A DNA stretch of 64,000 nt, taken from Sulfurovum sp. TSL6 (GTDB lineage Bacteria; Campylobacterota; Campylobacteria; Campylobacterales; Sulfurovaceae). Within the stretch, counting starts at the first letter, position 1. The number at the start of each line of letters is the position of its first letter. The stretch spans positions 186,001 through 250,000 of the forward strand of contig NZ_BPFJ01000001.1 in the NCBI RefSeq assembly GCF_019972115.1, read 5' to 3'. The notes below the pieces were generated by a model. It saw nothing but the letters and a program-made list of their open reading frames with translations, did no database searches and was not told the origin of the DNA. Of this stretch, positions 26,867 through 59,633 are shown one piece after another. The position numbers and the translations under genes were made by a program.

Positions 26867-26888
26867 ATGTATATTATGTATATTTTGG

Positions 26889-38683: not shown

Positions 38684-38760
38684 GGGTCGGTAGCTCAGTT
38701 GGTTAGAGCACTCGGCTCATAACCGAGTGGTCGGGAGTTCGAGTCTCCCCCGACCCACCA
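38684..38760 (+). tRNA. tRNA-Met (CAT)
   Basis: A complete 77-base cloverleaf with acceptor GGGTCGG/CCGACCC, anticodon loop CTCATAA and encoded CCA. Elongator Met is the likely identity; a tRNA-Ile2 with modified CAT cannot be fully excluded. The A+T-rich accessory region begins directly after it. Confidence 0.93.
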
Positions 38761-38935
38761 CCATATAATCCCCTATACATCGAGTATTGTAAGTATTTTT
38801 AACTATTTTTTCCACAAATTTTTTCCACAAATTGATTTTAACATATCGTTAGAGTATAAAGCTTTTGATTTTTACTAAACATCTTTGGTTATTATAGTGT
38901 ATGATTTTTGATGAAGGTCTATAAGAGATATGGTT

Positions 38936-38959
38936 AGTTCGAATCCCTCCCTGTCCCAC
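38936..38959 (+). other. tRNA 3'-end-like fragment
   Basis: The block AGTTCGAATCCCTCC followed by CTGTCCCAC looks like the T-loop, 3' half of the T-stem and acceptor of a tRNA. There is no matching 5' half upstream, so it is a fragment. Such scraps are typical of attachment-site remnants left by integrating elements. It is not a copy of the adjacent tRNA-Met. Confidence 0.4.
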
Positions 38960-39007
38960 ACATGTCAATATCTATTTATCATCTAATATAAAGATTTTTA
39001 GACTCTT

Positions 39008-39679
39008 TCATGGTCTTATATTATGTATATTCATGGCTAGTGATATAACCTTAACAATTGATTCTTTAGCTTTTTGTGTAGAAGCTCTTATATTACCGTG
39101 CATAAAACTATTTCTATCCTCTTTAAGTTCATAAAGTGTTTTTATTAAATTAGGATCATATTTATGCTTTTCTAGTTTCTTAATTGCATCAGTAATATCT
39201 ATTGCAGGTTCTCCTTTTAGATCATGTTTAATATGTACTTTGAGTACATTTTCAAATATTCTATATGCCATTAATGAAGTAGCTGTCCATAGTCTAAAAC
39301 CATAGGATCTAAATAACTCATTTATATCTTTTTTGATACTTTCATTGATTGTATCCCAAATTTTTGGTAAAAATAGTGAAGAGATATCTTCGGGAATATT
39401 ACTAGGGGTTATTTGTTCCAAATTATATTTTATATGTTCTATCAATTTAGCTTTTTTATACTGTAATGCCATGTGAGGTTTTCTCATATTCGTTGCATTT
39501 ATTCTACTTTTACTCTGCCTATTCTTTGTATTAGAATTGTTTCGTTTAGATTTATTGCTATCTTTTTTAGTATTTATCTGGGATGGAATATGTTTTTCTT
39601 TTAATTCCATTTCCTCTAATTGATTGTTGATTTCATTCCAATCTATCCATTCTCCATCATCCCAAATACCATCTGTCAT
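39008..39679 (-). CDS. Hypothetical protein with a HEPN-like C-terminal domain
   Basis: A 223-residue protein starting with a Trp-rich acidic segment (DGIWDDGEWIDWNEI), then a Lys/Asn/Ser-rich linker (about 35-75) and a helical C-terminal domain. That domain contains FRLWTATSLMAYRIFENVLK and the motif EDRNSFMHG at about 187-195. R189-x4-H194 fits the RX4-6H signature of HEPN ribonuclease domains, and DUF4145-like proteins look similar. It may be a toxin or RNase of a defence system; no antitoxin is visible next to it. It lies between two tRNA-like scraps at the left end of the island. Confidence 0.6.
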   Translation of the reverse strand: MTDGIWDDGEWIDWNEINNQLEEMELKEKHIPSQINTKKDSNKSKRNNSNTKNRQSKSRINATNMRKPHMALQYKKAKLIEHIKYNLEQITPSNIPEDISSLFLPKIWDTINESIKKDINELFRSYGFRLWTATSLMAYRIFENVLKVHIKHDLKGEPAIDITDAIKKLEKHKYDPNLIKTLYELKEDRNSFMHGNIRASTQKAKESIVKVISLAMNIHNIRP

Positions 39680-40182
39680 ATATGTTTTTCTCCTCGATTA
39701 AGAAATAAATTATTTCATTGATTAAAGTATATCAAAAGTCTTAATTATTGTGCCCAAAAATAACTATTTTTGGAGAATTGTAGATTTTGATAGAATCGCG
39801 AAAGCCCCAGTACGTGGTTATTTGTAGTTTTTTGTTATTTTATTTTTGATTTCCCTCACTGCCCGCCACTATAAAATTCCTAATATATCGCCTACAAATC
39901 ACTTTTTTAAATTTTGTTACAACAAATGTATGTAATTAAATACTTATTCTAAAATGAAATACAATTTTTCATCTAATACTGACTACAAATGTAATCTTAT
40001 TTTCGCACTCTTTTCATTGTAAAATCTCTTATATAGATTAAAATAAAACAGAATATTAAGTTCATGTTACATAAATATGACATTAATTGGATATACTTGA
40101 TTATAATTTTTACTAATCATAAAATTTAACACTAAATTAACATAATCTTTATACAATTCAAATATCAAAAAAGGGAAGTTTG
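39680..40182. other. Non-coding left part of the island
   Basis: A+T-rich, no gene seen. It contains a perfect 9-base inverted repeat, CCAAAAATA/TATTTTTGG (39754-39773), and a tRNA-3'-end-like scrap (39847-39868). A TATAAT box at 40102-40107 could drive the rightward gene cluster starting at 40183. Confidence 0.4.
39847..39868 (+). other. Second tRNA 3'-end-like fragment
   Basis: TGATTTCCCTCACTGCCCGCCA resembles the end of a tRNA: remains of a T-loop, T-stem, acceptor arm and terminal G-CCA. No 5' tRNA half is present. With the scrap at 38936 it brackets the HEPN-like gene. Confidence 0.35.
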
Positions 40183-40533
40183 ATGAGACAAATAAAAATT
40201 ATTTATGTAACTCTACTGTCTATATTTATTTTATGTGCTCAAAATGCTATTGCTAAAGAATATGAAGTTCCTCCTACATCTAGTACACGTGGACATGTAC
40301 CTTACATTTCGGATCAAGCTATGGAAGTATGTATCAAGCTTTATAATGAGGCTAAATGGCTCGATAAAGAAATTAGCAATACTCAGGTCAATCAGTATAG
40401 TCAAGCTTCTGTCGATGCCTATAACAATAAAGTAAGCCATCATAGTCAAATGATTAATGACTTTAATAGAAATTGTGCGGGAAAACAATCTGAATCTGCC
40501 TATAAAGCTGCACAAAAGTTGAATAATAAATAA
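40183..40533 (+). CDS. Small secreted protein with a C/LD/YSQ helical domain
   Basis: About 116 residues; ATG 40183 has AAGGGAAG just upstream. A cleavable signal peptide (ending ILCAQNAIA) precedes a mature part of about 90 residues with two cysteines. Its helical domain (C...LYNEAKWLDKEIS, QYSQASVDAYNN, DFNRNCAGK) shares its pattern with a region at about residues 172-225 of the 809-residue protein encoded at 45526. The function is unknown. It is probably periplasmic and heads the chaperone/protease cluster. Confidence 0.65.
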   Translation: MRQIKIIYVTLLSIFILCAQNAIAKEYEVPPTSSTRGHVPYISDQAMEVCIKLYNEAKWLDKEISNTQVNQYSQASVDAYNNKVSHHSQMINDFNRNCAGKQSESAYKAAQKLNNK

Positions 40534-40566
40534 TAAAATTAAACTATAGAATGAGAAAGGGTAGTG

Positions 40567-40776
40567 ATGTTAATGTATTTTATTATTTTTACTGTTATTG
40601 GCTTTATTATTGGCAGTTTAGTAAAAGATATCAATAAAACTATAGCGATTATCATAGTTGTATCAATACTTTGGGGATTAGTCAATGAACCTATTTGGGG
40701 CCTAGTTACACTAGGAGAGATATCTTTAGGCTTCTTTGTATATCTGATAATAAATAAAAAATTAACTAGTTATTGA
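40567..40776 (+). CDS. Small hypothetical membrane protein
   Basis: About 69 residues from ATG 40567 (AAAGGG upstream). It has two or three hydrophobic helices (YFIIFTVIGFIIGSLV, TIAIIIVVSILWGLV and ISLGFFVYLII) joined by short loops (KDINKT). No family is recognised. It follows the secreted protein gene after 33 bases and lies about 100 bases before the GrpE-like gene, so it may be part of the same transcript. Confidence 0.55.
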   Translation: MLMYFIIFTVIGFIIGSLVKDINKTIAIIIVVSILWGLVNEPIWGLVTLGEISLGFFVYLIINKKLTSY

Positions 40777-40874
40777 ACCACCTAATCAAATGTCATGCTT
40801 GAGTACTGCAAGTACAATGGATGATGTACACAATTGTTTGTTGTATTAAGACACAAAAATTAAAAGGGAGTAAT

Positions 40875-41705
40875 ATGGAAATGAATACAATACTAATAGT
40901 CTTGTTAATAATAATGTTGATTTTACAGTCAGGAGCAATATATCTTTTATTAATCAGAAAAAGATTTAAAATCACAAGTGAATCAGCTACACAAGATATT
41001 GAAAGGTTTTTAAATAGTCTTGATGAAGAAATATCTGAAAGATCTTTATCAACAGATAAATATTTACTAAAGCTAGCTGAATCACTTGAAAAACATGATA
41101 CTAGCAGAATAAACATGATGTATGAAATTAAAACAGGCAATCAAGAAGTTATTAATAATATAACCCAAGATGTGAATACTAGTCAGAATGAAGTAAAAAA
41201 GATAGTTTCACTTTTAAATGAAATGTTGAAAACACATTTAGATGATGTAGCCAATAAAATTGGAACGATGCAAGAAGAAGTTAGAGCCGTAAAAGAACTT
41301 GCACTAGAAAAAGAAGAAAAAATTCGTAGATATGAAGAAGGATATGATCAAAGAAATATCAAGCAGTTTTACAAAGAACTTTTTAAAATCTTAGAGTCTA
41401 TTAAAAAAGAACGACAGACAAATGACAATGAGGTTATAGAGGATATTCAAGATGATCTTTTATTGTTACTTGAGAATAATGGTATTGAAAAAATTGAGAT
41501 TGTAGAAGGCACTTCATATGAAGGACTCTCAAAAGTTGCAAAAGTTATTGATACAGAAGAAACTGATGATCCAGATAAAGACCTTTTAATTAAGGAGGTA
41601 AAAAAAGATGGTTATTTTGTTCAAGTCGATGAGGAAGTGCAGCGAGTTATTCGTCCTGCAGAAGTTATTTTATATAAGTTTAATCAAGTAAAAGAAGGAG
41701 AGTAA
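40875..41705 (+). CDS. Membrane-anchored GrpE-like nucleotide exchange factor
   Basis: About 276 residues from ATG 40875 (GGGAG six bases upstream). Residues about 4-28 are a transmembrane helix (TILIVLLIIMLILQSGAIYLLL). A long charged helical region follows (about 50-170), as in the GrpE dimer stalk. The last about 100 residues resemble the GrpE beta-wing (IEIVEGTSYEG, IKEVKKDGYFVQ, QRVIRPAEVILYKFN). GrpE normally is soluble and releases ADP from DnaK; here the anchor places it at the inner membrane. The stop is one base before the Hsp70 gene, which supports the role. Confidence 0.72.
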   Translation: MEMNTILIVLLIIMLILQSGAIYLLLIRKRFKITSESATQDIERFLNSLDEEISERSLSTDKYLLKLAESLEKHDTSRINMMYEIKTGNQEVINNITQDVNTSQNEVKKIVSLLNEMLKTHLDDVANKIGTMQEEVRAVKELALEKEEKIRRYEEGYDQRNIKQFYKELFKILESIKKERQTNDNEVIEDIQDDLLLLLENNGIEKIEIVEGTSYEGLSKVAKVIDTEETDDPDKDLLIKEVKKDGYFVQVDEEVQRVIRPAEVILYKFNQVKEGE

Positions 41706-41706
41706 A

Positions 41707-43227
41707 ATGGCGAATATAGTAGGAATAGATCTTGGTACAACGATGTCAGCAATAGCTGTATTAAATAGTGTAGGAAAACCTGAAACCATTCCAAATAAAG
41801 ATGGAGAGAGAATTACACCATCTGTAATCTTTTTTGAAAATGATCACAAGTCACTAATTGGTTTAGAAGCAAAGAATTCAGCAGGATCAGATGTTCATTC
41901 AGTTGCAAAAGAATTTAAAAGAGAAATGCATAATGATGATGATAGATTTAGTGTACACGGTAGCCAATATAGTCCTAGTGAGCTTTCATCTTTCGTTCTA
42001 AAAAAATTAGTAAAGGATGCATCTACACAAGTAGGACCTATTACTGATGTAGTAATTTCTGTTCCAGCATATTTTAAAGAGAATCAAAGAAATGCTACTA
42101 TTGAAGCAGGTAAACTAGCTGGTTTAAATGTGATTGGTATTATCAATGAACCTACTGCTGCAGCTCTTTATTATGCCACAGTAGCTGATATTAAGGGTAG
42201 AGGATTGGTTTATGACCTTGGTGGAGGTACATTTGATGTAACAGTTACAGATACAGATGGAAAAGATATTAAAATTATAGCTTCCTCGGGTGATCATCAT
42301 CTAGGTGGTGTAGACTTCGATCAGGCAATGCTTGAACTTATGGAAGAAAAGTATAAAAATGAAAAAGGTAGTAGTCTTTATAGTGATGAAGAAACTAAGT
42401 ATGAAATGTTACTTGAAGCCGAAGATTTAAAGAAGTCTCTTTCATCAAGAGGATCTAAAAAAATTAAACTAAATGGAGACAGTGGTAAAGCAGTACTAGA
42501 ATTTACTCAGAAAGAGTTTGAAGAGAAGATTTCAACTTATATTTCAAGAACTGAACTGCTTGTTGAACAAGCATTGCATGAAGCAAATAGTGAACCTGAA
42601 GATATAGATTATATTTTGCTTGTAGGCGGAAGTACACGTATCCCAGCATTTCAGAAGTCAATTAAGAAATTGATGAAGAAAGAGCCTATATCTGCAGTGA
42701 ATGTTGATGAAGCAGTTGCCTTGGGCGCAGCAATTAGAGCAGGTATAATCACAGTAAAAGAAAATCCTACTAGTGTATCTAGTACTGTTGCAAATGAAGT
42801 TAATAGCATTAGTATCGTGGATGTTGCAAATCATAGTTATGGAACGATTAGTAGAACTTTTGATGAAACACTTCAGCAATATACTCTAAAAAACTCTATA
42901 TTAATTAAGAGAAATACACCTTTACCATGTAGTGAAACACAAACTTTTTATACTATATATGAAGGTCAGGATGGCATTGACATTAGCATTACACAAGGTG
43001 AAGATACTGATCCAGACTTTGTTGATAAGATTCATGAAGAAGCTATGGATTTACCTGCGAATCGACCTGAGGGTCAACCCATTGAATTCACATATATATA
43101 TGATGAAAACCAAATGATGAAATGTATATTTAAGGATATTAACTCCGGAACAGTAAAAGAAGTTTCAATGCATTTTGGTGCGAGTGAAGAGAAAAAGAAT
43201 GCATTAGATGCATTCTTGGTAGACTAA
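41707..43227 (+). CDS. Hsp70/DnaK-like chaperone lacking the C-terminal lid
   Basis: A 506-residue protein. The ATPase domain is complete: GIDLGTTMSAIAVL (phosphate 1), INEPTAAALYYA (connect 1), YDLGGGTFDVTV (phosphate 2) and LVGGSTRIPAFQ (adenosine). A substrate-binding beta domain follows (SILIKRNTPLPCSETQTF, GIDISITQGED), but the chain ends soon after, well short of the 610-640 residues of DnaK, so the helical lid is missing. It is therefore not the housekeeping DnaK. Neighbours are GrpE-like (one base upstream) and TerB/J-like (12 bases downstream) proteins. Confidence 0.88.
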   Translation: MANIVGIDLGTTMSAIAVLNSVGKPETIPNKDGERITPSVIFFENDHKSLIGLEAKNSAGSDVHSVAKEFKREMHNDDDRFSVHGSQYSPSELSSFVLKKLVKDASTQVGPITDVVISVPAYFKENQRNATIEAGKLAGLNVIGIINEPTAAALYYATVADIKGRGLVYDLGGGTFDVTVTDTDGKDIKIIASSGDHHLGGVDFDQAMLELMEEKYKNEKGSSLYSDEETKYEMLLEAEDLKKSLSSRGSKKIKLNGDSGKAVLEFTQKEFEEKISTYISRTELLVEQALHEANSEPEDIDYILLVGGSTRIPAFQKSIKKLMKKEPISAVNVDEAVALGAAIRAGIITVKENPTSVSSTVANEVNSISIVDVANHSYGTISRTFDETLQQYTLKNSILIKRNTPLPCSETQTFYTIYEGQDGIDISITQGEDTDPDFVDKIHEEAMDLPANRPEGQPIEFTYIYDENQMMKCIFKDINSGTVKEVSMHFGASEEKKNALDAFLVD

Positions 43228-43239
43228 AGGAAAATAATA

Positions 43240-44409
43240 ATGGAAATTTTTGTTTTACTGTTTGTAGGTTGGATTGTATACAATATATATAGTGGCTATA
43301 AACAAAGAGAAGCAGAAGAGCAGATTAAGATACTACTCGATGCAATGGAAGAGGAAAGACGTCTAAATGCCTTTAAGTGTAAAATAACTGATGATACTTT
43401 TAAAGGAGAAGACTTTGAATGGGATGTATTTCATGTTCAAATGAAAGGCCTTATTGAAGGAAGTCAAGATGATTTTCCTGTTAAATATATTGTTCAAATG
43501 GCGGATGTTACAGACGGAAGATCTCCCATACTAAGTGCCATTGATCAATTTCAAAGTAACGATTCTACAGTTTTTTGGTTTGAATCAGGTATTGATAGAT
43601 TACCCTATTCAAGTACCATTTTTAAAGAATGGGCTACCACAGTCAAGATACCAAAAGCAATTTTAGAATTTCCTCGATCCGGTTTAAGAAAAGTCGAATT
43701 TAAAGTCTTTGCAGTAGATGCAAATACCGATAAGATTCTTTCTCAAGATAGCACTACTGTCAGTTACCATAATACGGATAAAGGTTATGAAGAGCAATCT
43801 GAACATAGAGAATATTTTGAAGAGATGGTTGTCAAGACGGCTATGTTGGTTAGTGCAAGTGATGGAGACATGGATACAAGTGAAGCTAATGTAGTTAAAT
43901 CATGGATTCAAAGAAATATTGAAAGATATAAGGTTGAGTATAGAGACGAAGAGAAAGAACGTTTAAATGGCTATATTAAAGAAGCATATCATGATATTCA
44001 AGATGATAATATTGATATATATGATACTCTAGAAGGTATTGAAAATATTGCTAGTGAAGGTGAAAAGTTTGAACTTTTTCAGGTTTGTTTAGATGTTGCA
44101 CAGGCTGATGGTGCAGCAGATGAAGCTGAACTTGAAATTATTCATGATATTGCAGACTATATACACTTAGATGAAAAACAATTTAAATCTATGATAGAAA
44201 AAACCCTGCCAATTACAATGCACACCTCTCCAGCAAATGAAGAAAGTTTACTGGGTATTACTCCAAATATGGAAGTAAAAGAAATAAAAAGAATACTACG
44301 AGAGCAGTATCAAAAGTGGAATGCTCGTGTTGCATCAAGTGACCCAAAGATTAGAACACAAGCAGAAGAAATGATTCAACTAATTGCAAAAGCAAGAGAA
44401 AGATATTAA
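43240..44409 (+). CDS. Membrane-anchored TerB-like protein with a degenerate J-like C-terminal domain
   Basis: A 389-residue protein. Residues 3-18 form a membrane anchor (IFVLLFVGWIVYNIYSG). A beta-rich middle (about 40-180) is unassigned. A TerB-like helical domain lies at about 195-315 (VVKTAMLVSASDGDMDTSEA and FQVCLDVAQADGAADEAELE, each with acidic metal-site patterns). Residues about 330-389 look like a J domain: LLGITPNMEVKEIKRILREQ and EEMIQLIAKARERY align with its helices, but the HPD tripeptide is replaced by NAR-like residues. TerB-J architecture recalls DjlA. It probably is the co-chaperone of the neighbouring Hsp70. Confidence 0.7.
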   Translation: MEIFVLLFVGWIVYNIYSGYKQREAEEQIKILLDAMEEERRLNAFKCKITDDTFKGEDFEWDVFHVQMKGLIEGSQDDFPVKYIVQMADVTDGRSPILSAIDQFQSNDSTVFWFESGIDRLPYSSTIFKEWATTVKIPKAILEFPRSGLRKVEFKVFAVDANTDKILSQDSTTVSYHNTDKGYEEQSEHREYFEEMVVKTAMLVSASDGDMDTSEANVVKSWIQRNIERYKVEYRDEEKERLNGYIKEAYHDIQDDNIDIYDTLEGIENIASEGEKFELFQVCLDVAQADGAADEAELEIIHDIADYIHLDEKQFKSMIEKTLPITMHTSPANEESLLGITPNMEVKEIKRILREQYQKWNARVASSDPKIRTQAEEMIQLIAKARERY

Positions 44410-44411
44410 TA

Positions 44412-45521
44412 ATGTTAAATCTAGATAAACTCAGATGGATAGATGATAATATAGATGAATATCAAGGTATTCTTGTTCGTGCAGAAAATAATGCATATGC
44501 ACATAGGATGCATCTATTATCAAATTCTTTAAAAGTTACAGAAGAAATTACCCCAAGAATTTCTTCTGTTATTAAAAAAGTTCTCCAACATCTCAGCCTT
44601 TTAGATATAGAACTTGAGTGCTATGTTAATAATGATTCAGATATGAATGCAAGTTGCTTTTCTCTTGGCAATGATGTTAATCTCATCATAATTATTAGCT
44701 CAGGATTAGTTAATACAATGACTCAAGATGAATTAGCATTTGTAATTGGTCATGAGATAGGACATTATTTTTTTGGTCATTTAGATTATGCTGAAGTAAA
44801 AAGAGAAAAAAATGCATTACTGGATATGAAATTAAGCAGGATATATCAATCTCATGAGATTAGTGCTGATCGCATTGGTTTGATATGTTCTGGTTCATTA
44901 GAAAGCTCTTTACGTGCTATAGTAAAAACTGTTTCTGGATTAAATGATGAGTTTATTACACATAATCTTCATACATATTTACACCAAATCCAGTCCTTAA
45001 ATTATGATGACTTGGCACATGCTTATTATACCCATCCAATTTTTCCTATACGTGCAAAAGCACTAACTCTTTTCTCAATGAGTGAGGTTTATTATTTATG
45101 GACTGGAAAAGATAAACAAGCTCCACTGACTGAGGATTCGCTAATAGCTAGAATCCGAAAAGACCTTGAATCAACAACAATGAAAAATCTAAAAGAGGAA
45201 AGTAAACATATTGTAGAAAAATTTCAACTTTGGTTTTATGTTAAATCATTTATAGATAATAATGAATTGGAACAAGATGAAATATTATTTTTAGAGAAAA
45301 ACTTTGGAGTTGATACAACAAAAAAAGCTCTTCGACTTGCAAAAGAAAACACTAGTTCTGTAACCAAGAAATATGAAGAGTTCCGTAATCAAGTACACCA
45401 TTTACCCTTACAATATAAAAGTTTAATGGTTAATGATATGAAAAATGCGTTAGATAGTATGTTAGAAAGCCATAATGTTCAAAGATACTTTAAAAACTTA
45501 ACAAAGTCAATTTTAGGATAA
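44412..45521 (+). CDS. M48-type zinc metallopeptidase
   Basis: A 369-residue protein. HEIGH at 114-118 is the zinc site and HEISADRIG at 148-156 supplies the third ligand (Glu 149), with the ADR segment typical of M48 peptidases. A preceding hydrophobic strand (LIIIISSGLV, followed by TQDELAFVIG) matches the family. The C-terminal about 150 residues are helical and unassigned (KHIVEKFQLWFYVKSF, a region recalling TerB-like repeats). No signal peptide or strong membrane helix is evident, so it probably acts in the cytoplasm. It starts two bases after the TerB/J-like gene and ends four bases before the 809-residue protein gene. Confidence 0.85.
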   Translation: MLNLDKLRWIDDNIDEYQGILVRAENNAYAHRMHLLSNSLKVTEEITPRISSVIKKVLQHLSLLDIELECYVNNDSDMNASCFSLGNDVNLIIIISSGLVNTMTQDELAFVIGHEIGHYFFGHLDYAEVKREKNALLDMKLSRIYQSHEISADRIGLICSGSLESSLRAIVKTVSGLNDEFITHNLHTYLHQIQSLNYDDLAHAYYTHPIFPIRAKALTLFSMSEVYYLWTGKDKQAPLTEDSLIARIRKDLESTTMKNLKEESKHIVEKFQLWFYVKSFIDNNELEQDEILFLEKNFGVDTTKKALRLAKENTSSVTKKYEEFRNQVHHLPLQYKSLMVNDMKNALDSMLESHNVQRYFKNLTKSILG

Positions 45522-45525
45522 AAGA

Positions 45526-47955
45526 ATGGATGATTCAGAACTACATCATATTGCAAAGAAGGAAGTAGAAAGTAAAACCTATGATAAGGATATATGGAAT
45601 AAGGCATTAGCCTTAACAGGTGGTAATGATACAAAGGCCAAAGAAAAGTATATTAAGCTGAGGATTCTCCAGCTTAAACGAGATGGCTATAAACCTAAAA
45701 AAAGTAGTGTCAACCAAAATACTGAGTCACCTAAAAAAAGTACACATGAGCCTAAAGAAGAACCAGAATCTAAGCAGAATTCTTCGCAATCTAGCATTTC
45801 AAATCTTGAACAAAGGCATAATAAGAAACCTTCTGATAAAAAAACTTCTTATGGATGGATTCTATGGGTGATTGCTGTCGTCTTCATTTTTGCTTTAGTT
45901 TACAATAATAAAAATACAACAAAAAATAGTTCTTACTCAAAAAGCAATAATTACTCTTCAAATTATACATCTAGAAAACAAGATAACTATGTTGAAAGTA
46001 AGCCTTCTGTGTCAGAATACACATTAAGTAAAAATGAATTACTTTATTGTGAAGCAGAAATGATTAGACTGGATGTAGTAAAAGATAAAATAGACAAGTA
46101 TTCTCAATACGAAATAGATAAGTACAATGGTTTGTCTGATGATTACAACGTAAGATGCGCTAATAAAAAATATTATCAAAATGATATGTATAGTATAAAT
46201 AAATTAATTAAAAATAGAAAATATGAAATAGAGCAAGAAGGATTAGCTAGATTTCAAAAGAATACTCAAAAAATAAAAAGTACTTTTGAAGATGGAGAAG
46301 CGTTATATATAAATACTTCTCCTGTAAGTGGAGATTGTAAAGTAACAATATTTAATGATGGAAGTATCGGTGCAACATTAAATGGCAAATTTAAACAATG
46401 GAAGACTATGTCTTCATGGGAAAGAAAGAAGTGTAAAGAGGCATTAAAAGAGGAGCAAGTTAGAGTTGGATATACAAAGGAAGAAAGAAAAAAAGTAAAA
46501 GAAACAATAGAAAAATATCCATTGACTATCATTGCAAATCCATTGGATGCACGGGTTCAGATTATGAATATAAAACCAAAATATTATCACGGCATACGTC
46601 TAGTTAAGGGAAAATATAAAATTCGTATTTCAAAAAAAGGATATGTAACACAGAATCATATTTTTGACCCATCAAAATATTCTACATACAATGTAATGCT
46701 AAAGAAGAGGACAAACAATAAAAGCAGTGATCGCAGTACTGTTGATTGCAAAGTAACAATATTTAATGATGGAAGTATAGGCGCAAGTATTGGAAATGGA
46801 GCATTTAATACATGGAAAAGTATGTCTGCGCAAGAACGAAAAGAATGTGAAAAGGCATTGAAAAAGGAGCAAAGTAGAGTTGGCAGAAAAGGAAATATAT
46901 ATGAAGCTAAAACAAGTGATGAAGGCTCTCAAGCGCTAAACTGTAAAGTAACAATATTTAATGATGGAAGCATAGGCGCAAGTATTGGGAATGGAGCATT
47001 TAATACATGGAAAAGTATGTCTGCACAAGAACGAAAAGAATGTGAAAAGGCATTAAATATTGAGCAGGAGAGAATTGGACGCAAGGGAAACACTCATAAA
47101 ATAAATACAAACAATAGCAAGAAAAAAAGAACAGACAAATATCCATTAACGATTGAAACATTTCCTTCAGATGCACGCGTACAAATTATGAATATAAAAC
47201 CAAAATATTATGATGGTATACGTTTAGTAAAAGGGGAATATAAAATTCGTGTTTCAAAAAAAGGATATACAACACAGAATAGTATTGCTGATCCAGCAGA
47301 AAAAACAACCTATCAAATTATTCTAAAAAAGAAAAAAAATAACATATCATATAGTGAAAAAATAAGAAACAAAAGTTATTCGAATAATGGATTGCCTGCC
47401 AATGCAAAGTTGGATTATTATGGTCATGGCTGGGAATGTAAAAAAGGTTATTATAAATATGGCAACAAATGTAATAAGGTAGCTATTCCTGCCAATGCAA
47501 AGTTGGATTATTATGGTCATGATTGGGAATGCAGAAAAGGTTATTATAAATATGCTAACAAATGTAATAAGGTAGCTATTCCTGCCAATGCAAAGTTGGA
47601 TTATTATGGTCATGACTGGGAATGTAAAAAAGGTTATTATAAATATGGCAACAAATGTAATAAGGTAGCTATTCCTGCCAATGCAAAGTTGGATTATTAT
47701 GGTCATGACTGGGAATGCAGAAAAGGTTATTATAAATATGCTAACAAATGTAATAAGGTAGCTATTCCTGCCAATGCAAAGTTGGATTATTATGGTCATG
47801 ACTGGGAATGTAAAAAAGGTTATTATAAATATGCTAACAAATGTAATAAGGTAGCTATTCCTGCCAATGCAAAGTTGGATTATTATGGTCATGACTGGGA
47901 ATGTAGAAAAGGTTATTATAAATATGCTAACAAATGTTTACCGGTGGGACAATAA
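45526..47955 (+). CDS. 809-residue single-pass protein with PEGA domains and tandem Cys-containing repeats
   Basis: Residues 1-55 are a small helical domain. Then a Ser/Lys/Gln-rich linker leads to one transmembrane helix at about 109-127 (WILWVIAVVFIFALVY). The outer part contains a C-LD-YSQ domain (about 172-225) and three copies of a CKVTIFNDGSIGA motif followed by W-K-x-M-S and C-K/E-x-A-L. Two PEGA-like domains (YPLTIIANPLDARVQIM and YPLTIETFPSDARVQIM) follow. Six 31-residue repeats with the core PANAKLDYYGHDWEC and KGYYKYxNKC end the chain. PEGA domains usually sit on the outside of the membrane. It may be the sensor or client-binding arm of the chaperone cluster. Confidence 0.78.
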   Translation: MDDSELHHIAKKEVESKTYDKDIWNKALALTGGNDTKAKEKYIKLRILQLKRDGYKPKKSSVNQNTESPKKSTHEPKEEPESKQNSSQSSISNLEQRHNKKPSDKKTSYGWILWVIAVVFIFALVYNNKNTTKNSSYSKSNNYSSNYTSRKQDNYVESKPSVSEYTLSKNELLYCEAEMIRLDVVKDKIDKYSQYEIDKYNGLSDDYNVRCANKKYYQNDMYSINKLIKNRKYEIEQEGLARFQKNTQKIKSTFEDGEALYINTSPVSGDCKVTIFNDGSIGATLNGKFKQWKTMSSWERKKCKEALKEEQVRVGYTKEERKKVKETIEKYPLTIIANPLDARVQIMNIKPKYYHGIRLVKGKYKIRISKKGYVTQNHIFDPSKYSTYNVMLKKRTNNKSSDRSTVDCKVTIFNDGSIGASIGNGAFNTWKSMSAQERKECEKALKKEQSRVGRKGNIYEAKTSDEGSQALNCKVTIFNDGSIGASIGNGAFNTWKSMSAQERKECEKALNIEQERIGRKGNTHKINTNNSKKKRTDKYPLTIETFPSDARVQIMNIKPKYYDGIRLVKGEYKIRVSKKGYTTQNSIADPAEKTTYQIILKKKKNNISYSEKIRNKSYSNNGLPANAKLDYYGHGWECKKGYYKYGNKCNKVAIPANAKLDYYGHDWECRKGYYKYANKCNKVAIPANAKLDYYGHDWECKKGYYKYGNKCNKVAIPANAKLDYYGHDWECRKGYYKYANKCNKVAIPANAKLDYYGHDWECKKGYYKYANKCNKVAIPANAKLDYYGHDWECRKGYYKYANKCLPVGQ
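46747..47091 (+). repeat. Near-identical internal duplication (CKVTIFNDGSIGA motif)
   Basis: Two copies starting at 46747 and 46942 (195 bases apart) are almost identical at DNA level over about 125 bases. A more diverged third copy starts at 46336. The near identity indicates a recent duplication or gene conversion inside the gene. Confidence 0.8.
47392..47937 (+). repeat. Six tandem 93-base repeats encoding 31-residue units
   Basis: Each unit encodes PANAKLDYYGHxWEC followed by (K/R)KGYYKY(G/A)NKC and a linker. Units alternate between KK...YG and RK...YA forms (1 and 3 against 2 and 4; units 5 and 6 end in YA), which suggests expansion as 186-base pairs. Each unit has two cysteines, so a disulfide per unit is likely outside the membrane. 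Confidence 0.9.
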
Positions 47956-48066
47956 AATGTTTTATTACTCGATAGAAATGGAATAATTGATTTAACAACT
48001 ACTGGTGATTTAGTAAATCTTTTACAAGCTAAATTATTGAAACTAACAATTGAACGTACACTTTAA
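47956..48066 (+). pseudogene. Short in-frame coding-like tail after the 809-residue gene
   Basis: Directly after the stop codon the same frame continues open for 36 codons (LLLDRNGIIDLTTTGDLVNL, then LQAKLLKLTIERTL) to TAA. There is no start codon or ribosome-binding site. It reads like the C-terminal remnant of another gene, but a readthrough extension is not impossible. Confidence 0.35.
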
Positions 48067-48126
48067 AAAGTAGCACATAATTTCATAAGGTTTATGGTTT
48101 TTTCTCTGGATATATAAAGAATCACA

Positions 48127-48144
48127 ACATAATGCATATTATGT
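48127..48144. other. Hairpin between convergent genes
   Basis: ACATAAT-GCAT-ATTATGT is a perfect 7-base stem with a 4-base loop, between the end of the 809-residue gene and the end of the relaxase gene. It may terminate transcription, but no strong T tract follows. Confidence 0.3.
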
Positions 48145-48173
48145 GGTCATTTTGAATAAAATTTCAGGGGGAA

Positions 48174-49646
48174 TCAAAGTTTTCTAATAGCATTCATAGC
48201 TTTATTAATGAAGTTGTTTTTTTCTTTTTTGAACGCAATATCTTTAAGTGTTTTTTCGACTATATCATCACTTGATTGTTCCTTGTCTCTATCGCCAAAG
48301 AATTTCACAAAAGTAGAAGATGAGGCACCTATTTGTTCCAAAAAGTTAGTAAGTGCTTTTAGGATTTCATTATTTGCATGTAAGTTAGGAGTTTTGTATT
48401 CTGTTTCTTCTTCTATTAGTGCTTTTGTAGCTTTCAGTATTTTATTTGCTTTCAATTCACTGTTACGTTCATTTATGATACCTTGTGCTTGATTTACAAC
48501 TTCGATATTTTGTTCATTTATGCTTTGGAGTTCTTTATTTGTTTTTACTACTGACTCAATTTCTTCTTCAAGTTTAACTACTTTGAACTCTGACTTTTCC
48601 ATTTCTGTCTGCATGTCAAAAATGATGTTTTCCAAGATAGCTTCAAGTTCAAGTTCTGCATTTGCATAACTTAACGCATTTGTTTTAATGCGGTCCTCTA
48701 ATTTCTTTATTTGTGATTGAAGTATTAAATCTTGAGATCGTTTAATTTTTTCAGATTGTAGTTTGAGTCGTATTTTTTTTGCACGAGCTTTCCAGGCTTC
48801 TTCTGCCTCTGCCTTTTCTTTTTTTAAATCCTTGATTTCTTCTTTAAGCATTATTATGGTTGCTGTGTGTACTTTTTTAACATCATTGATAGCATCAGTT
48901 ATTTGCTTCCGGTGCCAATGCGAACCACGCATAGTATTGCTACCTTCTTTACCTCTGTCCATATTTAATGCTTCGGCTGTGATAGTCTGAAGTTTTCGCA
49001 TATCTTCTCTGGTAGTTCTTCCCTTACCTGTGTCCAAATCAAATGTAGAATATAGTACATGAGCATGCAAGTTTTCAAATTTTTGTAGTACGCTCATATT
49101 AAATTTTGTCTCAAAAGTTTTAGAGGTATACCAATGATTATCATCTTCATTATAAAAAATATCACGATTAGGTCTATGTGCTATGATATGCTCAGTTACT
49201 TCTTTATTGTTTTTATCATACCATTTGAAATTTATTGAATCATAGATATAATTTTCAACGTTCCACTCTTCTGCCTTTTTCCCAATCCATTCAACGAAAA
49301 CACCTTCATCCTTATGAAGCGCAGCATCGAAAATTGTATACCCACCAAACGCCTTTTTTAGTGACGAAAATAGATTATGTATATCATCAATTTTTGTCTT
49401 ATTCTTTATATTTATGGCTGCTTCTTTAATGAGGGCATCAAATTGACTTTTTTGCATATTCTGCTTAACCCTTTTCTTGTAACTTTCTTGAGCTTGAACA
49501 ATAAAGTTTTGAATATTAATTCCACTACTATAATACTCATTATCGATCGAATTATTATCGAGTAAATAAGTTACTTTTTGTTTTCTCATCATGTGTTTAA
49601 GGCTATTTTTTGTTGCATTGATGGTATGAAAACTCGATTTGGCCAT
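48174..49646 (-). CDS. Mobilisation relaxase (MobV/Mob_Pre-like)
   Basis: A 490-residue protein. The N-terminal about 230 residues are relaxase-like: FENLHAHVLYSTFD contains the His-x-His metal-site pattern, followed by TGKGRTTREDMRKLQ and AEALNMDRG, similar to what I recall of mobilisation proteins of Campylobacter plasmids. The tyrosine nucleophile cannot be assigned by eye. From about 255 to 410 it is a long coiled coil rich in Lys and Glu. It would nick the transfer origin of a mobilisable element. A strong inverted repeat lies 59-90 bases upstream of its start (49705-49736). It is oriented against its neighbours. Confidence 0.65.
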   Translation of the reverse strand: MAKSSFHTINATKNSLKHMMRKQKVTYLLDNNSIDNEYYSSGINIQNFIVQAQESYKKRVKQNMQKSQFDALIKEAAINIKNKTKIDDIHNLFSSLKKAFGGYTIFDAALHKDEGVFVEWIGKKAEEWNVENYIYDSINFKWYDKNNKEVTEHIIAHRPNRDIFYNEDDNHWYTSKTFETKFNMSVLQKFENLHAHVLYSTFDLDTGKGRTTREDMRKLQTITAEALNMDRGKEGSNTMRGSHWHRKQITDAINDVKKVHTATIIMLKEEIKDLKKEKAEAEEAWKARAKKIRLKLQSEKIKRSQDLILQSQIKKLEDRIKTNALSYANAELELEAILENIIFDMQTEMEKSEFKVVKLEEEIESVVKTNKELQSINEQNIEVVNQAQGIINERNSELKANKILKATKALIEEETEYKTPNLHANNEILKALTNFLEQIGASSSTFVKFFGDRDKEQSSDDIVEKTLKDIAFKKEKNNFINKAMNAIRKL

Positions 49647-49704
49647 GATGATATTACCTTTCTTTTTCAGAAATATTTTTATTTGGTACGTAGAATAAGC
49701 CCAA

Positions 49705-49736
49705 ATAGGGTGCTAATATGCATACTAGCACCCTAT
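49705..49736. other. Perfect 11-base inverted repeat, candidate oriT
   Basis: ATAGGGTGCTA pairs with TAGCACCCTAT around a 10-base loop containing ATGCAT. It lies just upstream of the relaxase start codon, where oriT hairpins of MobV-type elements are found. No known nic sequence was recognised. Confidence 0.45.
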
Positions 49737-49904
49737 GAGTTTCTATATCTGTTGTACTATACAAAAATGGTAAGTGTAAAATCAAACAGGCAGGTTGTTT
49801 TCAGAAGAAAAATATAGAGGGTTAACTTTTATTTTAGAGCATAATTTGGGGATAGGGTTTAAAATACTGTTTTGATTAAATGTATTCTCCCTCAAAGTTC
49901 ACTA

Positions 49905-49913
49905 TGGTAAAAT
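49905..49913 (+). promoter_or_regulatory. Extended -10 promoter of the helicase-methylase-ATPase operon
   Basis: TGGTAAAAT fits TGN followed by a -10 hexamer, 36 bases before the GTG start of the helicase gene. Confidence 0.4.
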
Positions 49914-49949
49914 ATCTATAACATATTTTATGCTAGTGGGGAAGACTTA

Positions 49950-52900
49950 GTGAGTTCAAAATTTTTTACAAATCGTGATAATAATACTTTAGAAAATCGT
50001 CTTAAAGATATACTTACTTATCATAAAAATATTACTCACTTAGAATTTCTAATAGGTTATTTCCGTATTAGTGGATTTACCAAAATAGCAACACTTTTAA
50101 GTGGTATTACAAATGGACGGATCTTAGTTGGCATCAACATTGATAAGTTAACTCTTGAAGCCAAAGAGGCTGGGGTAAAACTGAACCTCATGGATTATGA
50201 AAAAATGAGTGGTCGATTTGTTGAGGAACAGTTGCTTGAACTAAATAAAGAGTCTTATTCTCAAGAAGTTGATGAAAGTGTTATTCTCTTTGCTCAAATG
50301 TTAGCAGAAAAAAAGATTGAAATTCGTATCTCGCCAGAGAAGAATATACACTCTAAAATATATATTCTCAGAGAAGATGAGATTACAAGACATGATGGAA
50401 CTGTAGAGTACAAAGGATCTGTTATTACAGGGTCTTCAAACTTGTCTGAAAATGGTCTTAGTAAAAACTTTGAATTCAATGTTGAACTTAGAGATAGTGA
50501 TGATATAGGTTTTGCACTGGAAGAGTTCAATAACTTATGGGCAAGTGCTATTGAAATTACTGACAAAGATGTAGATAACATAAAAGCAAAATCTCACCTT
50601 AAAGATATAACACCATATGAACTTTACTTGAAATTTCTTATAGAACATTTTGATGATCGGATAGATTATGATCCAAATGTTGTTTGGAATCTTCCTAAAG
50701 GTTTTATGAAACTAGCATATCAGATAGATGCTGTTACAGAAGGACTTTCTAAAATCAAAAAACATAATGGATTTTTCTTAGCAGATGTTGTGGGGCTTGG
50801 TAAAACAGTGACAACAGCTATGGTTGTAAAAAAACTACTGTTTGATCTTCAAGGTGAGGTGCTTGTCATTGCGCCTCCTTCCATTCAAAAAGAATGGAAA
50901 GATACTTTTAAAAAGTTCGAGATAGGAACATTGAGAAATTACAATGTTGTATCACTGGGCGCATTAGAGAAAATACGAGATACAGAAAGGTACTCCTTAG
51001 TAATTATAGATGAATCCCATAAATTTAAAAACTATGCCACTAGTAGATATGCAGAGCTTGAACGTATTTGTAAAGAACAAGTAAAGTACAAAAAAAAGGT
51101 GATACTCATCTCTGCTACACCACTTAACAATAGACCTATGGATATAGCAAATCAGCTCTATTTGTTCCAAGATAAAAGAAACTCAACCATCCCTTCTCAT
51201 CCAAACCTAGAGAGCTTTTTTGCTAAGGTAGATAAAGAATATAAAGAGATTATCGCTCCTGATAAAGATGGTAAGCCCATTGATAAAGAGAAGCTACAAG
51301 ACCTTTCGTTGAGAGTAAGAGAATCCATATTACGTGAAGTAATGGTAAGACGTACACGTACAGATATACAAACACACCCTATGTATTCTGCAGACATAAA
51401 AGAGCAAGGTTTAACTATACCTAAGGTGGCACCTGTAGAAGAGGTAACATATAAGATGAATGATAGTCTTGTCAAAACTTTTTCTGATACGATAGAAATT
51501 TTGACAAGTGAATTGCAGTACGAACGATATAAAGTCTTAGGTTACATAAAACCAAAGTCTCGTAGTAAGTATGGAAAAGTTAGTGAAAACATTTTCGAAA
51601 GAGGTGCATTAGAGTTAGCAAACTTAATGAGAAATATGCTTGTAAAAAGATTTGAAAGTTCATTTCATGCTTTCAAGACAACACTACAGCGACAAGAGAG
51701 TCACCTAATAGGACTTATTAAAATGTTTGAAGATGATAGGATTCTTTTAGGATCTAAAATTAATATCTTTGATTTGCTTGAAGATGAGGAGAGTGCAGAA
51801 GAGAAGATAGAGACTATGTTTGAACAAGGTAAAGTTAAGATCTTCGAAGCTTCTGACTTTGAAGAGGGCTACAAAGAAAAACTTGAAAAAGAACTCATTA
51901 TATTTGAACGACTTAACCAAATGTGGAGAGATGTGAAAGAAGACCCAAAACTTAATACCTTTAAGGAAGTATTGAAAAAGAGTAAAGGTAAAAAGATGGT
52001 TGTCTTTACTGAGTCTAAGCAAACAGCAATATACCTAGAGGAAAACTTAAAAGAATTTAAAGTTCTTTGTGTGCATGGGGGCAATAGAGATAAGCTTAAA
52101 GATACTATTAGTCAGAACTTTGATGCCAATTATGATGAGAAAAAGAAAAAAGATGATTATGATGTTATCATTACCACAGATACCCTTAGTGAAGGGGTTA
52201 ACATGCATCGTAGTAACATCATTTATAACTATGACATACCTTGGAATGCAACAAGGCTTATGCAGCGTATAGGTCGTATTAATCGTATTGGTACAAAGCA
52301 TCATATGATTTATGTAAATAACTTCATCCCTTCAGCTCAAAGTGATGTTCTCATAGAACTTTCTAAAAAGGCTTTTGTGAAGCTTCAAACTTTTCACTCT
52401 ACCTTTGGAGAAGACAATCAAATCTATAGTAAAGATGAAGAAGTGGGTACAGTTACACTCTTTGAAGATGTAGTAGAAGACATAGATGAAGAACTTGATT
52501 TTCTTGAAGAGATAAGAGACTACAAAGAGGCAAATCCTAAGAAGTTTAAAGAGTTAGTAAAACTTCCTATGAAGATAAGAGTACAACGTAAAGATGACAT
52601 AATACAAGATGCATCTTTTGTGTTCATCAAAAATGTTGAGGCAAAGAGTTACTACTATGTGGATGAACAACGATGTGAACCAGTTAGTTTCATAAAAATG
52701 GCAAAACACCTTAAAGTTTCACCTCGACTACAGGGCGTCATCCCTTTTAAGGCTTTCCACTATGAGCAAGTAAGAAAAGCTGTAGATCATTATGATGAAG
52801 AACTTGCAAAGATAGTCCAATCGGTAAGTAGAACTAAAGTAGATAATGCAACAGATAAAAAGGCTATACGTTTACTCAAGGGGTGGCTAGATAATGGCAT

Positions 52901-53126
52901 GATAAATAGGGAAACGCATAATATATTCAAAAAAATTTTTGAAGATGGTAGGCTTCTTAACTTAGGTAAGAAGATCAAAGTACTTGCAGGTAAACCATCA
53001 CATGAAGTAGTGGCTGAACTAGAGAAGCTTCAAGCAGAGTACAGTTTACAAGAAGTTGATAGCACTAAAACACGTATCAAACGAGAGATAGAAGTTATAC
53101 TCTCAGAAACATTCACAAAGGCCTAA
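49950..53126 (+). CDS. PLD-domain SNF2-type helicase
   Basis: A 1058-residue protein starting with GTG (GGGGAAG upstream). Residues about 15-190 are a phospholipase-D-like domain with NIHSKIYIL (His-x-Lys near 133) and GSSNLSENGL. Residues about 260-480 form the first motor domain: ADVVGLGKTVTTAM (Walker A), VIAPPSIQKEW, IIDESHKF (Walker B) and LISATPLNNRP. The second motor domain has VVFTESKQTAIYL, DVIITTDTLSEGVNMH and RLMQRIGRINRIGT. A C-terminal about 200-residue region is unassigned. It is probably the DNA-tracking component of an anti-phage or restriction system with the two downstream genes. Confidence 0.88.
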   Translation: MSSKFFTNRDNNTLENRLKDILTYHKNITHLEFLIGYFRISGFTKIATLLSGITNGRILVGINIDKLTLEAKEAGVKLNLMDYEKMSGRFVEEQLLELNKESYSQEVDESVILFAQMLAEKKIEIRISPEKNIHSKIYILREDEITRHDGTVEYKGSVITGSSNLSENGLSKNFEFNVELRDSDDIGFALEEFNNLWASAIEITDKDVDNIKAKSHLKDITPYELYLKFLIEHFDDRIDYDPNVVWNLPKGFMKLAYQIDAVTEGLSKIKKHNGFFLADVVGLGKTVTTAMVVKKLLFDLQGEVLVIAPPSIQKEWKDTFKKFEIGTLRNYNVVSLGALEKIRDTERYSLVIIDESHKFKNYATSRYAELERICKEQVKYKKKVILISATPLNNRPMDIANQLYLFQDKRNSTIPSHPNLESFFAKVDKEYKEIIAPDKDGKPIDKEKLQDLSLRVRESILREVMVRRTRTDIQTHPMYSADIKEQGLTIPKVAPVEEVTYKMNDSLVKTFSDTIEILTSELQYERYKVLGYIKPKSRSKYGKVSENIFERGALELANLMRNMLVKRFESSFHAFKTTLQRQESHLIGLIKMFEDDRILLGSKINIFDLLEDEESAEEKIETMFEQGKVKIFEASDFEEGYKEKLEKELIIFERLNQMWRDVKEDPKLNTFKEVLKKSKGKKMVVFTESKQTAIYLEENLKEFKVLCVHGGNRDKLKDTISQNFDANYDEKKKKDDYDVIITTDTLSEGVNMHRSNIIYNYDIPWNATRLMQRIGRINRIGTKHHMIYVNNFIPSAQSDVLIELSKKAFVKLQTFHSTFGEDNQIYSKDEEVGTVTLFEDVVEDIDEELDFLEEIRDYKEANPKKFKELVKLPMKIRVQRKDDIIQDASFVFIKNVEAKSYYYVDEQRCEPVSFIKMAKHLKVSPRLQGVIPFKAFHYEQVRKAVDHYDEELAKIVQSVSRTKVDNATDKKAIRLLKGWLDNGMINRETHNIFKKIFEDGRLLNLGKKIKVLAGKPSHEVVAELEKLQAEYSLQEVDSTKTRIKREIEVILSETFTKA

Positions 53127-53127
53127 G

Positions 53128-56100
53128 ATGGATTTAAAAGCATTTCTAAGTAGCAAGTACGATAGTGATACATTTGAGTCATTCATAAAAGAGCGCTTTT
53201 ATGGACTTGACATTTATGATAGTGGCAATACAGATAACTTTTTAAGCGAAAGTGAAAAGAAAAGTATAGATGCCTATCGTTTTCTAGGTAAAGTGGAACT
53301 TGAAGATGGTAAAGAGATAGGCTTTTTTGAATTTAAATCTAAGTCAATACACATAGAAAATAAACGGGTAGGCTACAATGCCATACTTAAGAAACTAGCT
53401 TATGAAGAGTACTTAGATGGTGCCATAGCTTCATTTTATCATCCAGATGGCGATGTATGGAGACTTTCTTTTGTGGGCTTTGAGTATGATGAAGGTAAGG
53501 CTAGTGTAACGAACCTAAAGCGTTTTACCTATGTGCTAGGAGAGGGGATACCAACTAAGACACCTTTGGCTCAACTAAAAGACCTAAAGTACCCTAAAAT
53601 AAATGAAATAGAAAAAGCCTTTAGTGTAGAAGCTCTTAATGATAGGTTTTTTAAAGACTACAAAATGTTATTCGAAGAAATAAATACTTACCTGATTAAT
53701 AATAAGTATACCAATTTTAATAGTGATGCAGAAGATGTAAGAGCTTTTAGTAAAAAATTATTAGGAAGAATCACATTCTTATATTTTCTTCAGAAAAAAG
53801 GTTGGCTTGGGGTTAATGAAACTTGGGGAGATGGAGATAAAAACTTTTTACAAAAAACTTTTCAAAATATACCTAAAGATAAAAATTTTTATGAGTTGTA
53901 TTTAAAAAACATCTTTTTTGAAGCGTTAAATTTAAAACGACCAAATGATAACTTCAAATTACTGAATTGCAAAATTCCATTTTTGAATGGTGGTCTGTTT
54001 GAATGTAAAAATACAGATAAAGAAATATTATTTATTGAAAATAATATTTTTGAAAATATCTTTGAAATTTTTTCTCATTACAACTTTACAATCATTGAGG
54101 ATTTACCACACGACAGTGAAGTTGCCATTGACCCTGAAATGCTCGGTAAAGTATTTGAAAACTTACTAGAAGATAATTACCAAAGTTCCAAGGGAGCTTT
54201 TTATACACCACGAGAAATAGTTCATTATATGTGTAAGCAATCTATTTATGAATATATGATAAATGATTTCATAGATAATAAAGAAGCAATTTATAATCTC
54301 ATTTTTAAAGATATTTCAGATGATGATTTCTTTAAAAATAGCAAAAATGCAATAGCCGTAGAAAATAAAATAAAATCCATAAAAATTCTTGATCCAGCTA
54401 TCGGTTCTGGTGCTTTCCCAATGGGATTATTGAGTGAAATTATAGGTGTATTACAGAATTTAAATAAAACTATTGATACTGTTCAAGCAAAGATAGATAT
54501 TATTGAAAATAGTATCTATGGAATCGATATAGATGCTTCTGCCGTTGAGATTGCCAAGCTTAGATTTTGGTTAAGTATTGTTGTTGATGAAGATGAACCA
54601 AAACCATTACCTAATCTTGATTTTAAAATTATGCAAGGCAATAGTCTACTTGAAACTATTAATGGTTTTGACCCACTAGAGGAAAATGAACAGAACAAAG
54701 GAAATGGTGCAAGGTTAAAAAGAATGAAGAAAAAATTTCATGACTTTTACAATGCATCTTCAAAAGAAGAAAAATCAATTGTTTTAAAAAGTATAGAAAA
54801 AGATGTAAATGAGATTTTCACAACTGCATTAAGAAAAAGACAAATTAAACGACAAAAAAATCTTGATGTAAATAATGATTTATTTACAACAAACTCAAAA
54901 CTTTTAAAAGAAATTGAAGAGCAAAAACAAGAAATAGAATTAATTGATAAAGTTTTGAGTGACTATCAAAAAACAAAATCTACCAATGAATTGTTTTTAT
55001 ATAAAATATATTTTGCAGAAGTTTTAGATAATGGTGGCTTTGATATTGTTATTGGTAATCCACCATATTTACGGGTTCAAGGCATTGATAAGAAAGTATC
55101 AGAACAATATAAAAATATTTTTGATAGTGCAACTGGTAGTTATGATTTATACGTTTTATTTGCAGAACAAGGACTTTCCTTGCTATCTAATGAAGGAGTT
55201 TTAAACTTTATTATGCCTCATAAGTGGGTAAATGCAAGTTTTGGAAAAGGATTACGAGAGTTAAGTAGAAATACAATTCATAAGCTCATCTCTTTCGATG
55301 CTTATCAAGTCTTTAATGCTTCAACATATACTTCACTTGTATGGTTTAAAAATAAAAAGGATGACAGTTATTTAAAGTATGTAGAATTAAATAAAGATTT
55401 ATATACAAATAAAGAGCTTGAGAATTACCTTTTTGGTTTAAAAGATGATGAATTTACCAATATTAATAATAATGATTTAACTTCTGAAAGTTGGATACTA
55501 ACAAATAAACAGACATATGAAATTTTGGAAAAATTAAAAAAACAACCTTTAAGAATGAACAATATATTTGAAAAAATATTTACAGGACTGCAAACAAATA
55601 AAGATAGTATTTATTTTTTAAAAAATTGTAGATATGAAGATGATTTAATTATTGCTTTTTCTGATGAGCTACAAAAAGAGATAAGAATAGAGCAAGGGTT
55701 AGTAAAGCCACTTCTGAAAGGTGATGATATTCATAGATATGAAAAAATAACCACTGATAAGGTAGTAATATTCCCATATTATATAGAGAAAAAAGATGAT
55801 AAAGATAAAGCTATTTTATATACAGAAGATGAAATAAGTATGAAGTTTCCAAATGGATATAAATATCTTAAAGAGTGTGAGTCTATTTTAAGGGATAGGG
55901 AAAAGGGAAGATTGAGAAATGATGATTATTGGTTTAGGTATATTTATCCAAAGAATTTAACTCGCTTTGATAAAGAAAAATTAATTCAACCAGATATTTC
56001 AATGGGTGGAAATTTTGCTTATGACGAAAATGGCAAATTTTACCAGACTACAACACTATATGGCTATGAAAAGTGTAGTAATATACAAGAGAGTTATAAA

Positions 56101-59615: not shown

Positions 59616-59633
59616 AGAATGAAAGGAAGAATG

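Follow-up and report, generated by a model that had tools for sequence, protein, structure and literature searches.

A lidless Hsp70 encoded with GrpE-like and TerB/J-like partners in a genomic island of Sulfurovum sp. TSL6 and its possible role in envelope signalling

Organization of the gene cluster

Positions 40180-47955 of a 64,000-nucleotide stretch of the Sulfurovum sp. TSL6 genome (NCBI RefSeq assembly GCF_019972115.1, contig NZ_BPFJ01000001.1, positions 186,001 to 250,000; this whole stretch is called the window below) carry a cluster of seven genes whose products include a GrpE-like protein, an Hsp70 that lacks the alpha-helical lid, and a protein with TerB and J-like domains. An open reading frame (ORF) scan of the window placed all seven genes on one strand (+), with the last five separated by 1, 12, 2 and 4 nt, in agreement with a preliminary description of this DNA that had reported seven same-strand genes and 1-12 bases between the last five.

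The first of the five packed genes encodes the GrpE-like protein (40875..41705), which has a clearly predicted N-terminal membrane helix (aa 1-29), a long coiled coil and a C-terminal GrpE-like beta domain, and whose start at 40875 is preceded by the ribosome-binding-like sequence AAAAGGGAG. It is followed by a 506-aa Hsp70 (41707..43227; Pfam HSP70, 3.8e-102) with a complete nucleotide-binding domain and the beta part of the substrate-binding domain (SBD-beta), and by the TerB/J-like protein (43240..44409), in which a short N-terminal membrane helix and a beta domain precede TerB and a C-terminal J-like three-helix domain. The next gene encodes a cytosolic M48 metallopeptidase (44412..45521; Pfam Peptidase_M48, 2.9e-15) with the zinc motifs HEIGH and EISAD. 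The last encodes an 809-aa protein (45526..47955) with a cytosolic N-terminus of ~105 aa, a clearly predicted membrane helix at aa 106-130 and a periplasmic part that consists of a small domain, two PEGA-type domains (Pfam PEGA, 2.4e-6) and six C-terminal repeats of 31 aa, each 93 nt long in the DNA. A single membrane helix had been proposed for the GrpE-like, TerB/J-like and 809-aa proteins and none for the Hsp70 and the peptidase; this holds for the first and last of the three, and no membrane helix was predicted in the cluster's Hsp70 or M48, but that of the TerB/J-like protein is short and borderline, with a Kyte-Doolittle (KD) hydropathy of 1.81 over 17 residues and 1.53 over 19.

Two smaller genes lie ahead of these five. 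The first ORF is 117 aa as called (40180-40533), with 40183 as the better start, and the resulting 116-aa protein (40183..40533) has a signal-peptide-like N-terminus (KD peak 2.05 at aa 4-25) and is predicted to be periplasmic; its small domain resembles aa 160-215 of the 809-aa protein (BLASTP E 2.6e-6). The second (40564..40776) encodes a 70-aa hydrophobic membrane protein with helices in the KD profile and ends 98 nt before the GrpE-like start, and its membership of the cassette is uncertain.

The cluster is distinct from the housekeeping dnaK/grpE/dnaJ set, as the preliminary description had stated, since dnaK and grpE adjoin each other on another contig, C2. Besides DnaK, the sole other Hsp70 found in the genome is a protein of 610 aa with a lid.

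A conserved triad in two phyla

Relatives of the cassette were surveyed in 397 genomes of Campylobacterota and in a Bacteroidota-group sample of 395 genomes (the phylum of a Cytophagales metagenome-assembled genome, MAG), and six cassette loci are known in all. The GrpE-like profile matched one of the 397 genomes of its own phylum, that of Sulfurovum sp. TSL6 itself, so the cassette is rare there. A contig of a Campylobacterota MAG, Guaymas Epsilonproteobacteria (L006), encodes a GrpE-like protein and then an Hsp70 (identities of 37% and 55%) and ends just inside a third gene, whose start is glycine-rich. In genome G782 the order is Hsp70, TerB/J, TerB/J, M48, as in the window, and its M48 is 27% identical to the window enzyme (E 4e-26). 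A TerB/J profile search added three loci, G949 contributing two and G1071 one; all three carry the genes for GrpE-like protein, Hsp70 and TerB/J in the order given, and among the loci examined the GrpE-like profile matched only these cassettes.

Judged from gene content and order in these genomes, the conserved unit is the triad of GrpE-like protein, Hsp70 and TerB/J, shared by two phyla. The larger five-gene set that had been put forward as the unit does not hold together, since only one further locus has the M48 and no other has the 809-aa PEGA/repeat protein; for the triad, the homologues are not scattered without a conserved neighbourhood. This bears on the explanation that unrelated stress genes were simply collected on a mobile element, to which we give almost no credence: islands do collect unrelated cargo and the whole five-gene set is not conserved, but the same order in two phyla and the shared derived features found in each protein contradict chance clustering of the triad.

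In G1071 and G949 (C118) the copies have metabolic-type flanking genes in common, suggesting that the locus is a settled part of the chromosome with a broader role at the envelope. The G782 cassette is adjoined by a series of genes for TPR proteins (17158-27608 of the joined L092/L093 coordinates), several of which have VSHEVSHSV-type repeat runs near the C-terminus. Viral contigs contained no relatives of the TerB/J, GrpE-like, M48 or 809-aa proteins, and plasmid searches returned nothing for TerB/J (window and G1071 queries) or for the L006 GrpE-like protein.

Altered features of the Hsp70 and its partners

The six cassette Hsp70s form one clade in a phylogenetic tree (support 100/98), apart from DnaK, HscA-like proteins and two plasmid Hsp70s, and all six end after SBD-beta without the alpha-helical lid. 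The window protein is 506 aa long, compared with 624 aa for the DnaK of the same genome. The equivalents of DnaK K70, E171, T199 and D201 are kept in the alignment of cassette Hsp70s, so ATP hydrolysis is plausible; with intact ATPase residues and no lid, these proteins would be expected to bind clients loosely and to act as nucleotide-driven switches. This combination also bears on the possibility that the cassette serves quality control of membrane or exported proteins, with the Hsp70 extracting or refolding damaged inner-membrane proteins and M48 degrading them, and with no part in signalling or defence. An Hsp70, a protease and membrane tethers are the usual layout for such a function, and M48 relatives include HtpX and BepA, but a lidless Hsp70 is ill-suited to repeated cycles of client refolding, as is a J domain without its HPD motif (see below), and M48 is missing at most loci.

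Among 80 viral Hsp70 loci, none encoded a lidless Hsp70 of the cassette type or had a GrpE-like or TerB/J gene alongside, and plasmid Hsp70 matches were mostly ordinary DnaK or HscC. An Hsp70 from a Rhodococcus plasmid that is also short was set aside, as it falls outside the clade and has different neighbours. The CoCoNuT systems with Hsp70-like units (PMC11090510) were likewise rejected as a match, the cluster being without McrB or McrC and the CoCoNuT Hsp70 units having degenerate Walker A-like motifs.

The GrpE-like protein matches PF01025 over window positions 41217-41672 (E 8.5e-5, profile positions 13-163 of 165), and profile-profile comparison with 19 GrpE proteins (hhalign) gave E 1.7e-4 to 4.5e-4 at a probability of 33-49%. 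Its homologue at locus L107, in another phylum, matches Pfam GrpE over almost the same span (5.8e-5, 9-163 of 165), also under the Pfam cut-off. In our judgement the GrpE-like assignment is weaker than the other domain calls and yet appears to be real. A weak match of the same protein to ZorA (E about 0.01) was traced to the predicted coiled coil; there is no MotA-type channel, and Zorya was rejected as a relative.

Three loci encode a larger protein of 626-716 aa that has the GrpE-like domain as its cytosolic tail and, ahead of the tail, two blocks of leucine-rich repeats (LRR) followed by a single membrane helix (L106 4995-7145; L107 12172-14052; L108 11906-13876). The window protein has the membrane helix and no ectodomain. 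These predicted LRR-GrpE membrane receptors are the strongest functional hint found, as they would join an outward-facing receptor to a nucleotide-exchange factor, and their existence gives the sensory link proposed in the preliminary description stronger support than the window by itself provided. They also argue against membrane quality control, because LRR ectodomains on an exchange factor point to control by an outside ligand.

The TerB/J-like protein matches Pfam TerB at 9.6e-10 and DnaJ at only 0.11, and DjlA-type matches align over its aa 192-385 (E 5.5e-7). The HPD motif is absent from the J-like domain of all seven members, which have a conserved WxxR in its place, and is present in 11 of 12 DjlA-type proteins, so the fifth gene product should not be regarded as a functional J protein. 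In its AlphaFold model (mean pLDDT 48) only the last ~50 residues are confident, with the last helices at pLDDT 84-91. The TerB/J family profile also picks up calcineurin B chains (E 1.7e-6), for which EF-hand-like DG...E loops may be the reason.

Setting in an integrated island

The cluster begins 1.4 kb past a tRNA-Met gene, the 3' end of which forms the left attachment repeat of 32 nt (38730..38761, +) that recurs at 266864-266895 of genome contig C1 (80864-80895 in window-extended coordinates), next to a tyrosine integrase gene (79387-80607, -, extended coordinates). In the relative G478, whose RodA is 97% identical, the tRNA runs straight into sequence that resumes 42 kb further on in this genome. 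The empty site in G478, the repeats at both ends and the integrase together identify an integrated island of 42.1 kb, of which the part within the window is 38762..64000 and which runs on to ~266,895 of contig C1. The location in an island is thus borne out by a close relative. GC content is 32% in the island and 39% upstream.

The cassette occupies the tRNA-proximal end. The other cargo is largely of defence type and includes an SNF2-HKD helicase, an Eco57I methylase, SbcD with an adjacent SbcC-like ATPase, GmrSD, an OLD-type nuclease, DUF2779 and a Wadjet-like set with MksE and DUF3584. Just inside the island, positions 38930-38958 resemble a degenerate tRNA 3' end and are perhaps the remnant of an old attachment site. 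A 223-aa protein encoded at 39008-39679 (-) has an RNSFMH motif and is HEPN-like by eye, with no Pfam match, and a 490-aa protein at 48174-49646 (-) has a HAH motif and resembles a Mob-type relaxase by eye, with no significant Pfam or PHROG match. A further 4.3 kb just past the far end of the island (contig C1 ~266,911-271,221; window-extended 80911-85221) is also absent from G478.

The setting invites the explanation that the whole family functions as an anti-phage system, in which the arm formed by the 809-aa protein senses phage adsorption or injection and the machine triggers a lethal or blocking response by way of M48. The 42-kb integrative island is dense with defence genes, and similar arms occur on plasmids together with an IetA/TRIP13-like AAA ATPase and an Hsp70 of another kind (described below). 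This explanation overlaps with the reading developed below, and in its strict form we regard it as possible, though unlikely: no PADLOC family corresponds to the Hsp70, TerB/J or 809-aa protein, the cassette has no recognisable toxic effector, and relatives elsewhere are not found among defence genes.

The periplasmic arm

The 809-aa protein is homologous to arm proteins on a Shewanella plasmid (L040, E 6e-17) and a Vibrio plasmid (L042, E 3e-10), whose genes adjoin those for a longer Hsp70 (about 830 aa) and an IetA/TRIP13-like AAA ATPase in operons for a long Hsp70, an AAA protein and a peptidoglycan-binding arm (L040 3486-11273; L042 7655-14338). The small domain of the 809-aa protein is found again in these arm proteins. 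The Shewanella copy is next to Tn7-type transposition genes. The likeness to the cassette lies in the homologous periplasmic arm beside an Hsp70 on a mobile element; the difference is that these operons have the long Hsp70 and the AAA ATPase in place of the GrpE-like, TerB/J and M48 proteins. Mobile elements thus combine this kind of arm with two distinct Hsp70 modules; the arm of the 809-aa protein is probably bound to the cell wall or the surface.

An adhesin or wall-binding arm could in principle be the client, with the chaperones aiding its export or insertion. Its gene closes the packed cluster, and its repeats and PEGA domains point to attachment to the wall or surface, but the chance that the cassette is such an assembly helper appears slim, as four other loci have the core without any 809-aa-like protein and the chaperones face the cytosol and are without known export functions.

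Relation to known systems

No family in PADLOC-DB 2.0 was matched by the Hsp70, TerB/J or 809-aa protein, and the GrpE-like protein and M48 gave weak generic matches only. The set is not described in the open literature searched, where a mention in the TerB survey of Anantharaman et al. (2012) could still occur, so the earlier remark that no described system of this composition was known agrees with both searches.

The nearest parallel is the membrane-anchored TerB-J protein DjlA of Escherichia coli, which influences the Rcs envelope-stress relay in a manner dependent on DnaK and GrpE (PMC11709261). The two share an N-terminal helix (borderline in the window protein), TerB, a C-terminal J-like fold and Hsp70 and GrpE partners, but DjlA has the HPD motif and uses the housekeeping DnaK and GrpE, whereas the cassette has a dedicated, lidless Hsp70 that lacks the GrpE-signature loop, a GrpE-like protein that is membrane-bound in its own right, and an additional beta domain ahead of TerB. 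HscC with DjlB and DjlC is a second parallel, being a specialised Hsp70 without the GrpE-signature loop that has membrane-bound J partners encoded nearby; unlike the window Hsp70, which has 506 aa, no lid and a GrpE-like neighbour, HscC has 550-580 aa and a lid, is believed to need no exchange factor, and has tail-anchored J partners (PMC8215388). Since HscC and these partners are thought to act on membrane proteins (PMC8215388), this parallel favours the quality-control explanation, which, weighed with the altered features described above, we consider quite unlikely.

A third group comprises the GAP1-N2 GTPase systems, predicted to function in biological conflicts. They combine HSP70 and GrpE with a DnaJ-bearing or TPR protein, and in some of them PEGA or another domain that binds the wall is present (Kaur et al., 2020; PMC7159879). 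In the part of that account drawn on here, these systems are GTPase-centred and found mostly in actinobacteria and firmicutes, and it contains no mention of a lidless Hsp70, an HPD-less J domain or a receptor-GrpE fusion. No GTPase domain is among the Pfam matches of the window cluster. The cassette is real, conserved and, within reach of these searches, undescribed, and it is akin to membrane-tethered Hsp70 machines such as DjlA-DnaK-GrpE.

A possible Hsp70 switch at the membrane

The reading that we favour, at about an even chance of being correct, is that the cassette forms an Hsp70 switch, anchored in the membrane, through which envelope signals reach the cell interior, with the M48 protease as output, and that in the window it most likely serves defence. 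The earlier proposal of a membrane-tethered Hsp70 machine distinct from DnaK/GrpE/DnaJ is supported by what the sequence shows, namely the genes with their domains and shared order, the absence of lid, loop and HPD motif, the predicted helices, the LRR-GrpE fusion and the island. From these we infer the physical assembly of the parts, which way the signal runs, the client, what the protease acts on and the role in defence. The GrpE-like exchange factor would be tethered to the inner membrane, as the cytosolic end of an LRR receptor in the Bacteroidota-group relatives, and the TerB/J-like partner would keep the Hsp70 at the membrane, probably by docking it rather than by triggering its ATPase, given the missing HPD motif. 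In the window, the 809-aa protein may supply the contact with the outside. A change at the envelope, for example damage to the wall or the entry of a phage, would be sensed by the LRR region in certain lineages, with the 809-aa arm perhaps taking this part in the window, and would alter nucleotide exchange on the Hsp70 and hence its client-bound state. The Hsp70 might then release or present a client to the cytosolic M48 (in the window and G782), which would act on this step or be freed by it.

Several observations weigh against this proposal. The PF01025 score of the GrpE-like protein is 22.7 bits against a Pfam cut-off of 25.8, and its AlphaFold model is poor (mean pLDDT 41). The GrpE-signature loop (DnaK 290-295) is absent from the cassette Hsp70s, and a review associates its loss from HscA and HscC with GrpE-independent function (PMC8215388). 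A dedicated GrpE-like partner is therefore not what one would expect here, and it must have another mode of binding or another task. The tethers also vary, as the L006 GrpE-like protein begins without a membrane helix and no TerB/J membrane helix was detected in the second copy at L106, at L107 or at L108. Nor are all components constant: the G782 Hsp70 has no adjacent GrpE-like gene, M48 was found at only two loci (the window and G782) and the PEGA/repeat arm in the window cassette only. Finally, the Bacteroidota-group copies are not among defence genes. The defence genes around the window copy are thus the one basis for the defence role suggested in the preliminary description, and these antiviral neighbours make defence a fair guess for this copy; in other genomes the core may have a general part in sensing the envelope.

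Implications

Hsp70s are known as machines for protein folding, with a cycle governed by J proteins and by exchange factors that diffuse freely. In the cassette each partner departs from this scheme in a way that suggests signalling, since the Hsp70 has no lid, the J-like domain no HPD motif and the Hsp70 no canonical GrpE loop, and at three loci the exchange factor is built into a predicted receptor. We tentatively propose, with more doubt than assurance, a new form of signalling across the bacterial membrane, in which a receptor outside the cytoplasm has a GrpE-like exchange factor built in and by this means controls an Hsp70 directly. The lidless Hsp70 would be the switch, an HPD-less TerB/J protein would dock it at the membrane, M48 would provide the output in some lineages, and mobile islands would have recruited the module to sense phage or other attack on the envelope.

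If this proposal is true, a ligand outside the cell could determine, from across the membrane, which state an Hsp70 adopts, a logic that we have not found described for bacteria. The cassette would then be a candidate for a new defence module, and the membrane role of DjlA and of TerB domains would become directly testable.

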